64,000 nt of DNA, taken from the NCBI GenBank assembly GCA_029240105.1, contig JARBTR010000013.1, forward strand, positions 1 to 64,000. Reading direction: 5' to 3'. The notes beneath the pieces are model-generated. The model did no database searches, had not been told where the DNA came from, and was given only the letters and a program-made list of their open reading frames with translations. Shown piece by piece: positions 23,452 to 31,940 of the stretch (the first letter of the stretch is position 1; every line of letters begins with the position of its first letter). Source of the DNA: Caryophanales bacterium. GTDB lineage: Bacteria > Bacillota > Bacilli > JARBTR01. The translations under genes and the position numbers were made by a program.

Positions 23452-25656
23452 TTAACTGTTAGAAGTTTTTCCAATTTGTCTCTCTAGTATATACTCAACA
23501 GCATTTAATACTGCATTCAATCCAAATGTAACAACACTTGTAAAAGGAATTTTATACTGCTTACATATGTCTTTTGCTTCATAATAGACAGCGTGTCCCA
23601 TATGGCTCTGCATGAAAATAACAACATCTGATTTTAACAAGTTGCTTTTTAAAGTTCTATCTGGAGCATCCCCCCCAACGCCAATAAATTCCCCTTTTCG
23701 TTTTTGAATTTCATTTTTATAGGTTGAATGTCCTGGTTCAAAACCAATTATACAAATCCTTTTCCCTTCAAAAATCGGTTCAATATCAGCTTTAAAATAT
23801 GCATAACTTGAAGTTTCATCTTTTTTACGAGAATTCAACTGTTTTGCAGATTCTGTAATTGCGATATATTCCGAAATGGAATATTTATGACGTATCCGCA
23901 TTTCTTCAGGTCTCTTTTTATAGAAAGCAGCGTTTACGATATCACCTTCACGAAGGTCAAATTCCTGAATATCTCTGTCCCATATTTTCAAAATATGAAC
24001 TTCACCATCACACTCAATTTGATTAGAAAATACAGTATTACGAATACCCAAAGTACCATATTGCGGCTCATAACCGACTATCCCACATTCAATACTATGT
24101 ATATCTTCATATTCTGATATATTTCCAGTTCTTTCAACTATACTATACTCATACTTATCTGGCCGATCTTCAAATCTTTCTATTAATTTTGCAGTAACTA
24201 AATCGCCGTGTTGGAGATCCAGTTTCATAATAATTTTCTCTGGTACATAGGCATTTATTTCTGGAATAACCCCGCCTTTAAGTACCCGTTCAAATCTCAA
24301 AGGTTGATTTTCATCAAGAACTTCTGTTTGTTTCCGTTCTAAAACATACGTTGAGCATACTTCATCTTGTAAGGTTGTTATGTTTGGGTCCTCGATTACA
24401 GGGGATTTTACAAACACTTGTTTTTTATTCTTTAAAGCCAAATCAATTTCAGAATGAATAACACCACGTAATTCTGAAACAATTTCAGCAAATAATTCAT
24501 CTTTAAGTTTATCTCTAAATGAATTTATTTCAATTTTTACTGGATTATTTTCGATATAGTTTTTTAATTCTTCATTTGCATTATGACTTTCCTGACTTTC
24601 ACTCTGTATAGAGTAATCTTCTAATGATTTAGTTTTATTTAAAGTTTCATCAAGGCTTTGACAATGTCCATTTAATAAATCAACTTGATTTGATAATTCA
24701 TCTTTTTGTGCGCGAAGTTTAATAACTTCTGCCTCAAGTGAATCAACCAACACAGCATATTGTTTAATTGTTTTTTCTGATTCTTTAAGTTCCTCCAGGA
24801 GTGCCGCAAATTCTCGTTTTAATTTATCTACTTTTGGACTGGTATTATCAGAACTATGCTTTACAACATTTTCTAACTCTTTAATTCTTAAACAATACTT
24901 TTCATTTTCTCGGGTTAACTTTTTCTGTTCGTTTTTTACTTTTGTAAGCTCTTGGTTTAATTCATTTTTTGAATCCCTTAGTTCTTTAATTTTTGTGTCT
25001 TTTTTCCCTAGGTTATCTTTAAACTTAGTCTTTTCTTTCTCTAATATTTTTTCAAGTTTATTATATTTTTCTTGTAGAAGTTCATATTGCTCAGATTTTT
25101 CTTCTTTTTTTTCAATTTCATCTTGCGAGAGAAGATTTTTATCCAATTGTTCATAATTTATTGAAACATGAAACTCTGTGCCTAGTTTTATCTTATTCTC
25201 TATATAATATTGTTCTGCGAAATTTTCTAAAATTTTCTTTAAATAGCCATGCCATTCCTTCTTTACTAGCCAGACATAACAAATAATTTCATTTACATTA
25301 ACTTTCCTCTCATTATGAAGTTCTTCCAAATAGGCGAGAATTTTGTCTATAGTTGAAAGTTCTGAATCGACTTCAAATTTCTCCATTAAATCCAATTTAA
25401 ATAGTTTATTCCAAGCATTCATTAATTGATTAAAGCAATCGTAACAATACTGAAGGTTTAAACTAAAAGTATTTGTAAAGGCGTCCGAATCCATGTTTCT
25501 GTACTTTAATAATTTCAATTGTTTTTGATAATTTTTATCATCAGAAACAACTTTTTTTAGTGTTTCTATATTAAAGCTTGATAGAAGCGCCCTGTCTAAA
25601 AAAGCATTATCGATCCCATCAATTAGTATTCTTGGATGTTTTTTAAATTTAGCCAC
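23452..25656 (-). CDS. Large coiled-coil protein with C-terminal DUF2325 domain
   Basis: 734 aa from a GTG with AAGGGGA upstream. Three parts: a helical N-terminal region (about 1-180) with aromatic and cysteine-containing segments; a long charged coiled coil (about 185-350, e.g. ELRDSKNELNQELTKVKNEQ); and a C-terminal half with two small beta segments (LKLDLQHGDLVTAK-like and LREGDIVNAAFYKK) leading to DUF2325 at about 631-734. The last contains RICIIGFEPGHSTYKNE, FIGVGGDAP, and SDVVIFMQSHMGHAV. DUF2325 is a Rossmann-like domain of unknown role, usually in much shorter proteins. No signal or membrane span. It stands alone, flanked by gaps of 362 and 556 bases. Lys/Asn-rich, AT-rich codon use hints at transfer. 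Confidence 0.7.
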   Translation of the reverse strand: MAKFKKHPRILIDGIDNAFLDRALLSSFNIETLKKVVSDDKNYQKQLKLLKYRNMDSDAFTNTFSLNLQYCYDCFNQLMNAWNKLFKLDLMEKFEVDSELSTIDKILAYLEELHNERKVNVNEIICYVWLVKKEWHGYLKKILENFAEQYYIENKIKLGTEFHVSINYEQLDKNLLSQDEIEKKEEKSEQYELLQEKYNKLEKILEKEKTKFKDNLGKKDTKIKELRDSKNELNQELTKVKNEQKKLTRENEKYCLRIKELENVVKHSSDNTSPKVDKLKREFAALLEELKESEKTIKQYAVLVDSLEAEVIKLRAQKDELSNQVDLLNGHCQSLDETLNKTKSLEDYSIQSESQESHNANEELKNYIENNPVKIEINSFRDKLKDELFAEIVSELRGVIHSEIDLALKNKKQVFVKSPVIEDPNITTLQDEVCSTYVLERKQTEVLDENQPLRFERVLKGGVIPEINAYVPEKIIMKLDLQHGDLVTAKLIERFEDRPDKYEYSIVERTGNISEYEDIHSIECGIVGYEPQYGTLGIRNTVFSNQIECDGEVHILKIWDRDIQEFDLREGDIVNAAFYKKRPEEMRIRHKYSISEYIAITESAKQLNSRKKDETSSYAYFKADIEPIFEGKRICIIGFEPGHSTYKNEIQKRKGEFIGVGGDAPDRTLKSNLLKSDVVIFMQSHMGHAVYYEAKDICKQYKIPFTSVVTFGLNAVLNAVEYILERQIGKTSNS

Positions 25657-26212
25657 AGAAATTCCCCTTTAGATACTTTTAATTAATTTACAAAATAACC
25701 CAGGTAAATTTTTACCAATGAACAATCTCTAATAGTTTACTTTTTAAAATAAAAAGAAGCGACTAAATCGCTCCTTTGTCCGTTAGCATAATGATTTCTT
25801 TTATAGAGAATGCCATTAACAATTTAACTACACTTTTTCACACTCTAGGTTTCCATTACATTTAAAACAACCTCAGATAAAAGTTAAAATTAGAGTAATA
25901 GCGACAGTTGTAGAATGAAATTATAATTTGTAATAGTAGTTTTTTTCATTAAAACAGAAAAGTCATATCCTTAATGGACCTTTTTGAATAGTTATTGACT
26001 GACTTGATACAGAAACACTTTTACAAATCTTCTAATTACATAAAAAAACATCTCCTATGCTTAAAATTGATCCTTTAAACACAAAAGATGTATGTTATTA
26101 TATATGCTCAATATTGGTATTATGTATGCCGTAACTAACACATTTTCCGCCAATATTTCGAGACCTTATTCTCTTATAACCCAATAGAATCAACAGTTTA
26201 AGGCCCTTCCTA
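25657..26212. other. 556-base gap upstream of the DUF2325 gene
   Basis: It contains the hairpin at 25750-25777 and otherwise AT-rich DNA with no ORF, RBS or repeat I could support. A convincing promoter for the DUF2325 gene was not found. Confidence 0.5.
25750..25777 (-). terminator. Orphan terminator-like hairpin
   Basis: AAAGGAGCGA / TCGCTTCTTT on the minus strand (one mismatch) with loop TTTAG, followed by TTTTTATTTT. The nearest upstream gene on that strand is the broken yebC, over 400 bases away. Confidence 0.55.
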
Positions 26213-26858
26213 TTACTCTTCCCAGTTATGCCAATAGTTTTGAACATCATCGTCATCTTCTAGAACTGCTAGTAGTTTTTCCATTTGAGCAACGTTTCCG
26301 CTATCCAGGTGATTATACAATGTTGGAATCATAGAAATTTCAGCTGAAACAAATACGTAACCTTGCTTTTCAAGAGTTTCTTTTACAGTTAAGAAATCAT
26401 TCGTTTCTGTGTAAATTTCGAAAGCGTAGTCAGTAATCTTCACGGCTAATTGCAAGGTACCCTTTACGATTAAACATGTAAGATACAGAGCCTGTTTCAC
26501 CAAGATTTCCCCCATTTTTGCCGAATGCTGTACGTACATTTGTTGCTGAACGATTGCGGTTGTCAGTCATACATTGTACAAGAATCGCGACACCACCTGG
26601 TCCGTATCCCTCATACCAAATTTCGTCGTAGTTTTCTCCTGTACCACCACCAGCTGCCTTTTTAATGGCACGGTCAATTGTGTCCTTTGGTGTATGTGCT
26701 GCTTTTGCTTTTTCAATTGCAAGACGGAGACCTGTATTACCATTCGGATCTGTGCCACCATTTTTTGCAGCAACATAGATTTCTTTTGACATTCTCATGA
26801 AAATTTTACTTCTGTTAGCGTCAATCGCGCCTTTTTTGGGATTCTGTACACGACCCAT
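26213..26858 (-). pseudogene. yebC: YebC/PmpR-family protein, disrupted by deletion and frameshift
   Basis: Two overlapping frames together cover a YebC-type protein (translation/transcription factor family, about 240 aa). Frame 1 (26430-26858) gives the N-terminus with [27 protein letters not shown] and [19 protein letters not shown], then stops after ISREDY. Frame 2 (from about 26450 to 26213) gives [17 protein letters not shown] to the end DDDVQNYWHNWEE. At the joint roughly 20 residues of the acidic middle segment are missing and the frame changes. The N-terminus is also about five residues short against the usual MAGHSKWxNI start. More than one lesion suggests real decay rather than a single read error. 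Confidence 0.8.
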
Positions 26859-30802: not shown

Positions 30803-31112
30803 TTAGAAGTATAGACGTGGCATTCCTTGGTATGGTGTTGCAATTGGTGGCATTGGTTGTGCTTGAACATGACCACCACAGCCACATCCAAAATCAGGTT
30901 TGTTCACGACTGGAACAGCTTGCGGTTGTGCGAAAGGATGCATTGTTTGCGGATGTTTACCAAAAGGCATTACTTGTGGTCCCATCATTCCTGGCATTGC
31001 ATGAGTTGCATGAGGTCCCATCATTCCTGGCATTGCTTGTGGTCCCATCATTCCTGGCATTGCTTGCGGTCCCATCATTCCTGGCATTGCTTGCGGTCCC
31101 ATCATTCCTGGC
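30803..31112 (-). pseudogene. SafA-like coat protein, C-terminal segment in shifted frame
   Basis: Continues the MPGMMGPQA repeat of the neighbouring frame and ends with a cysteine/glycine cluster PDFGCGCGG and IATPYQGMPRLYF. It is joined to the upstream frame at about 31112, where one repeat unit lacks two bases (GGCTGC instead of GGCATTGC). It has no RBS of its own. This looks like the authentic C-terminus displaced by the indel. Confidence 0.7.
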
Positions 31113-31940
31113 TGCTTGCGGTCCCATCATTCCTGGCATTGCTTGCGGTCCCATCATTCCTGGCATTGCTTGCGGTCCCATCATTCCTGGCATAGCTTGT
31201 GGTCCCATCATTCCTGGCATTACTTGTGGTCCCATCATTCCTGGCATTACTTGTGGTCCCATCATTCCTGGCATTGTATATTCAGCTGATGATTCCATCA
31301 TCATTTCTGGCATTCCACACATTTCAGCTGTCGGTACACCCATTAATCCTGGCATAGCCTGTGGTCCCATCATTCCTGGCATCATTTTAGGTGCTTTCAC
31401 TGGGTTTACAAGTCCTGGATTCCATTTTGGTTGACCAAGATTGCATCCTGTATGCATTGGCATACTGGATAAATGCGAAGAAGATTCCCATGGTAAATGT
31501 GTTTCCTCTGGACTTTCAAAGTGAACTTGGTATTGAGACATCATTGGTTTTCCAAAACTAGGATTAACCATAGATTGTGTAGGACTTCCAAATTGTTCAA
31601 CAGGCATTTGTCCATATTGTAGATTCATCAAACCATCATGCATTTGTCCGTAATGCATTTGTCCAAAATGCATATGTTCAGGACATGGTGGTGGGCATGG
31701 CACTGGACATGGCGGAGGACATGGTGGTGGACATGGCACTAGACATGGTGGTGGACATGGTACTGGACATGGATTAATTGGTTCTATTGGACATGCTTCA
31801 AAATAAATCGGCTGTTCTTGTTTAGGCTCTGGTTTAGGCTCTGGCATAGGAATTGGCACCGGTACCGGCACTGGTACCGGTTTAGGCATTGGTTTTGATT
31901 TAGGTTTTGGTGCAGGAACAGTTACATCCAATTTTTGCAT
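30957..31940 (-). pseudogene. SafA-like coat protein, middle segment (Pro/Cys/Met-rich)
   Basis: 327-codon frame with no RBS at its ATG; coding-like sequence (NEIDINNYFLTN) continues upstream of that ATG toward the LysM ORF, so it is probably an internal part of one gene. Composition in order: PKPKSKPMPKP, a CPxPCPPPC cysteine-proline ladder, a Gln/Met/His-rich section, then 9-residue repeats MPGMMGPQA/V. After about 31112 the frame reads an unrelated ARNDGTASN repeat because of a two-base deletion, and it stops at 30957. Confidence 0.7.
30962..31276. repeat. 27-bp tandem repeats in the SafA-like gene
   Basis: About eleven units of the pattern GGCATTGCTTGYGGTCCCATCATTCCT, each coding MPGMMGPQA in the correct frame. 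One unit is two bases short at about 31112. Confidence 0.9.

Follow-up and report, generated by a model that had tools for sequence, protein, structure and literature searches.

DUF2325 is widespread in Bacillota, yet it has no established function. The open literature that we consulted gives none and seldom names the domain. Stand-alone DUF2325 proteins are about 100 aa long; Cj1384 of Campylobacter, with 104 aa and seven cysteines, is PerR-regulated and strongly induced by light and ROS (PMC9426514). Among viral proteins, the best fold match to the protein described here is gp324 of Bacillus phage G (441 aa, E 4.9e-7), encoded about 1.4 kb before a DnaE-like gene. A further point of comparison is offered by the RNA-binding domain of Rho (PF07497) and by the OB fold of aIF1A. 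OB barrels of the Rho and IF1A kind usually grip RNA or single-stranded DNA.

In this work, we analyzed a gene for a 734-aa protein that ends in DUF2325, found in a stretch of 64,000 nucleotides (the window) from a Caryophanales bacterium. Our main new point, which comes from sequence comparison, is that the protein appears to belong to a recurrent layout in which unrelated heads are carried on a stalk followed by DUF2325. For this layout we found no published description or test, in an open literature where DUF2325 is scarcely named.

Results

The gene was found as an exact open reading frame on the minus strand, where the sequence-only reading had placed it, and a genome search showed it to be present in one copy in its own genome. 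Its parts are given in table 1.

Table 1. Features of the gene and of the encoded protein, in positions of the window.
Feature	Position	Strand	Basis and remarks
Whole gene	23452..25656	−	734 aa, GTG start, single intact ORF
Ribosome-binding site AAAGGGGAA	25662..25670	−	Read from sequence; precedes the GTG start; strong
Terminator-like hairpin in the 5' leader	25753..25777	−	Consensus scan: 11 pairs, then a T-run
Head, residues 1–175	25132..25656	−	Probably all-helical; no relative found
Coiled-coil stalk, residues ~176–345	24622..25131	−	Heptad periodicity
Charged linker, residues ~346–454	24295..24621	−	Read from sequence; no family match
Beta module 1 (OB/Rho-like, likely), residues ~455–515	24112..24294	−	GDLV at 484–487; Rho_RNA_bind; AlphaFold strands and helix
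Beta module 2 (OB-like, likely), residues ~516–592	23881..24111	−	GDIV at 571–574; AlphaFold; short homology to module 1
DUF2325, residues ~629–730	23467..23772	−	Pfam; domain alignment; H688 and D677

The 5' leader matched no Rfam family, and its folding z was −1.3. The hairpin in it comes after a promoter-like site at 25920-25949, an arrangement in which an attenuator is possible.

A search of PDB chains, plasmids, viral contigs and 300 Bacillota genomes turned up no relative of the head, and profile scans including Pfam and PADLOC gave it no family match. Run without an alignment, AlphaFold made it all-helical at an unreliable pLDDT of 39.5, and we regard such a structure as probable. The protein had been called an orphan, a description that holds for the head, which also matches no known enzyme, but not for the core or the layout, both of which have relatives. 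In the following segment, heptad power at residues 194–249 exceeded that of all 100 shuffles of the protein, and per-window heptad periodicity spans residues 190–315, in agreement with the long coiled coil proposed from the letters.

At the other end, PF10087 matches residues 635–721 with E 4e-10 and 40.1 bits, above the cut-off of 33.6, and the C-terminal domain was therefore correctly recognized as DUF2325. In the domain alignment it keeps a histidine after strand 3 (H688), the single near-invariant position of the domain, and an aspartate in strand 3 (D677); the histidine is invariant in A8. Like DUF2325 proteins such as Cj1384, it has the G, D and H typical of the domain. Foldseek neighbors of the domain in the PDB are parallel alpha/beta folds, including Rtt107 BRCT domains, carbamoyltransferases and Rossmann enzymes, all with E above 1e-3, and designed Rossmann proteins rank first in a sequence-profile search of the PDB. 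DUF2325 is present in 89 of 399 Bacillota genomes, with approximately 110 matches. Most of these lie in frames of less than 150 aa, as had been assumed of the domain, about 25 in frames of at least 300 aa and six in frames of at least 600 aa.

The two beta segments had been singled out for their repeated GD[LI]V pattern. Both motifs fall among predicted strands, and a half-versus-half profile comparison found a short homologous stretch shared by the two modules. The Rho_RNA_bind profile reaches residues 468–491 of the window protein with E 3.6e-4 and 20.7 bits, under the curated cut-off of 27; in a staphylococcal relative (L025) it scores E 3.9e-6 and 27.0 bits, at the cut-off. It is weaker in three other relatives. 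In relative L027, a weak Rho_RNA_bind match falls in the equivalent of module 2. The AlphaFold model of the core, built on an alignment of six sequences, has a mean pLDDT of 77 and a pTM of 0.49. Its Foldseek matches in the PDB include aIF1A (4mno) and eIF1A (2oqk), with probability 1.0, TM(target) 0.53–0.55 and E of about 0.013, as well as Rho, the part of the query covered by each match being judged from fold type and length; none of the matches reaches E 1e-3. AbrB chains match the beta part weakly (E 0.05), and an AbrB-type cradle-loop (GD-box) barrel is a possible alternative, with Foldseek favoring the IF1A/Rho type of OB fold.

Because no PDB match reaches E 1e-3 and Rho_RNA_bind stays below its cut-off, so that every line is sub-threshold for the window protein, we consider the assignment of the modules to Rho/IF1A-type OB barrels likely, not proven. 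In common with the Rho domain and the aIF1A-type fold, to which it is tied by weak profile and Foldseek matches, the protein has a helix, a GD-box and strands. Unlike Rho, it falls under the curated cut-off and has no Rho ATPase.

The core, that is, residues ~455–734, almost certainly belongs to a family of beta-beta-DUF2325 proteins (profile A1). The E of 2e-108 given by that profile is not independent, since the profile includes the window protein; the core also aligns over its full length with a phage protein (38% identity) and 14 others. Members turned up in 52 of the 400 Bacilli genomes searched, where weaker matches cover DUF2325 only, in 28 plasmid records (Bacillus, Paenibacillus, Staphylococcus and others) and in viral contigs. 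Most full members are 340–450 aa long and lack a long coil. A scan of genome contigs gave no homologue with the full protein and only three with a core alignment, and a tblastn search of the phage collection returned none.

The closest relative (L089/L092, 361 aa) is encoded in IMGVR_UViG_3300038393_000804, a 264-kb record that is a jumbo phage in view of its length and its terminase and portal genes. In the core tree, the window protein and this phage protein are joined with support of 92/85, slightly below the strict limit, and several forks are weak. The phage protein shares the beta-beta-DUF2325 core but has a short helical N-terminus, without the orphan head or the long coiled coil. Its neighbors, identified by sequence, are dnaE-nrdIEF-glutaredoxin on one side and ssb-recA-thyA on the other. 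The plasmid neighbors of core genes are diverse.

A search for the same architecture showed that the layout recurs across Bacillota and in phage G. Long DUF2325-ended proteins of Bacillota measure 589–694 aa (L059, L061, L062 and L008), 694–711 aa (L063 and L068), 742–775 aa (L069 and L132) and 669–696 aa (L130 and L131), and there are shorter ones too. Several of them (L059/L061/L062, L063/L068, L069, L130/L131 and L132) have in common with the window protein a helical head, a coil, beta modules and DUF2325. They differ from it in the number of beta modules, of which L069 and L132 seem on visual inspection to have as many as about four, and in the sequence of the head, which also changes from group to group. 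Of 18 long DUF2325 proteins tested, nine have a heptad stretch that shuffling equalled in no more than 5 of 100 cases, gp324 of phage G among them. The latter shares the coiled coil, a small beta region and DUF2325, but it lacks the helical head, has at most one beta region and is too divergent for the core profile.

According to hhalign, the heads of the compared groups are related neither to each other nor to the window head, and the long forms are scattered over separate parts of the core tree. Based on these two results, the family appears to have swapped or acquired its heads and stalks on more than one occasion. In one genus, an AAA_14/DUF4143 ATPase gene convergent with the long DUF2325 gene is conserved (L059:10936-12450, L062:6476-7975).

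The gene lies between two housekeeping genes, yebC and ruvA, with non-coding flanks of 323 bp below and 556 bp above it, and is indeed isolated, as first described. Its GC content is 0.303, against a mean of 0.362 ± 0.035 for the genes of the window (about 1.7 sd lower), and its GC3 is 0.206, against 0.260 ± 0.037 (about 1.5 sd lower). The gene is therefore AT-rich, but modestly so, and several other genes of the window show the same low values. Neither flank recurs elsewhere in its own genome, as mobile-element ends might.

The ruvA neighborhood is recognizable in ten relatives, no nearer than class to this Bacilli-like host genome of 84.9% completeness, and none of the ten has the gene there. 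For this reason, the gene is an addition to an otherwise conserved region, and not a conserved syntenic housekeeping gene. The stretch had been described as syntenically disturbed, which is true of the extra gene and of yebC (26213-26858), split by a frameshift and without about 26 middle codons compared with relatives, but not of the surroundings, which are otherwise conserved. The yebC frameshift may be genuine or may stem from the assembly.

Discussion

The domains, the family, the phage and plasmid distribution and the absence from syntenic relatives were observed directly. They are best accommodated if the gene came in by horizontal transfer and belongs to a modular protein family of Bacillota, jumbo phages and large plasmids. 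The coil would bring the protein together as a dimer or higher oligomer, in which several OB-type (Rho/IF1A/S1-like) modules would be arrayed to bind single-stranded nucleic acid. DUF2325, with its conserved histidine, may serve as a small module for a ligand or partner, coupled to nucleic-acid binding, and the exchangeable head may set the partner or the location. In phages and plasmids, the relatives would act as accessory factors of replication or nucleotide metabolism, and the copy in this chromosome would have been captured and retained as a stand-alone gene. Taken as a whole, this chain, leading from phage or plasmid ancestry to an oligomeric accessory protein that binds single-stranded nucleic acid and has an exchangeable head, has in our estimate somewhat less than an even chance of being right in every link. 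The phage and plasmid neighborhoods bear on origin and role as an association only.

More speculatively, Bacillota chromosomes, large plasmids and jumbo phages may have in common a so far undescribed class of modular "stalk" proteins that bind nucleic acid and combine DUF2325 ends with coils and freely swapped unrelated heads, with a role in replication or in the conflict between phage and host; we hold this broader proposal to be possible, with the balance against it. In either form, DUF2325 would be tied to tandem OB-type modules, swapped-head coils and jumbo-phage replication neighborhoods, which gives this widespread domain a concrete hypothesis, namely single-stranded nucleic-acid binding.

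The sequence-only reading had proposed a signalling or defence device. The arrangement on which it was founded, from head to stalk to an alpha/beta end, is real and recurrent, but a defence role for this gene is possible but not supported. Under this explanation, the protein would be an anti-phage or stress sensor in which a signal picked up by the head passes through the coil to the OB/DUF2325 end, whose target would be nucleic acid or a nucleotide ligand. Unrelated, interchangeable heads on one chassis do resemble sensor diversity, and some relatives adjoin genes of type II restriction (L075, L143), DndB (L142) or a type I methyltransferase (L140). A PADLOC candidate pair, PDC-M16A/PDC-M16B (L066:1599-6258), also stands some 1.6 kb away from a gene for a short beta-beta-DUF2325 protein, and on a plasmid of Bacillus halotolerans a Thoeris-like SIR2 and TIR pair (L026:141-2205) precedes a DUF2325 gene by 3.6 kb. 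Such neighbors, however, were chosen by eye. PADLOC defence-type families numbered 116 among the 90 neighbor proteins of 14 long-DUF2325 loci and 55 among 143 proteins of 14 arbitrary control regions, mostly from the same genomes; these counts largely reflect a few methyltransferases that match many models, part of the set had been looked over by eye beforehand, and the control regions hold such families as well, so that we do not read the difference as an enrichment. For the window protein itself, the PADLOC scan gave only JetC/LmuB matches driven by the coil, inspection of the window recognized no defence gene, its neighbors reading as housekeeping, and the closest relative is itself phage-borne. 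We therefore regard defence or stress sensing as unlikely, roughly a one-in-several prospect. A DrmE_C match in another relative (L011, E 0.0017, below cut-off) was disregarded.

It might also be that the gene was captured recently from a phage or plasmid, has no function in this host and is decaying. A stand-alone insertion, AT-rich and adjacent to a frameshifted yebC, could be expected under such a scenario. Against it, the frame is open throughout its 734 codons, and the start, the ribosome site, the coil, the beta modules and the conserved H and D are all intact, which makes decay improbable.

A little less credit still goes to a redox or peroxide-response protein in which DUF2325 would be the working part, a role that has been suggested for stand-alone proteins of this domain, and the remainder a scaffold. 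The regulation of Cj1384 by PerR and its induction by light and ROS point in this direction, as does C698, kept in the window domain and common to several core relatives. This cysteine is not conserved family-wide, though, the conserved residue being the histidine, and the phage and plasmid context offers no recurring redox partner except the glutaredoxin by nrdIEF.

Profiles of SMC and JetC match the window protein only at residues ~131–387, that is, in the coil, and kinship with them was rejected as a coil artefact. The poorest candidate is a nucleoid- or chromosome-organizing coiled-coil protein, with an SMC-like role but no ATPase heads. These matches and the likeness of the DUF2325 model to Rtt107 BRCT domains, among others, speak for it; against it, the matches cover only a low-specificity coil, the Pfam scan found no ATPase domain and there is no Pfam BRCT match at E<1.

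Elsewhere in the window, at 30803-31940, a gene with MPGMMGPQA repeats adjoins a LysM/SafA-like gene. The frame switches there, with ARNDGTASN repeats, which suggests indels in the repeat.
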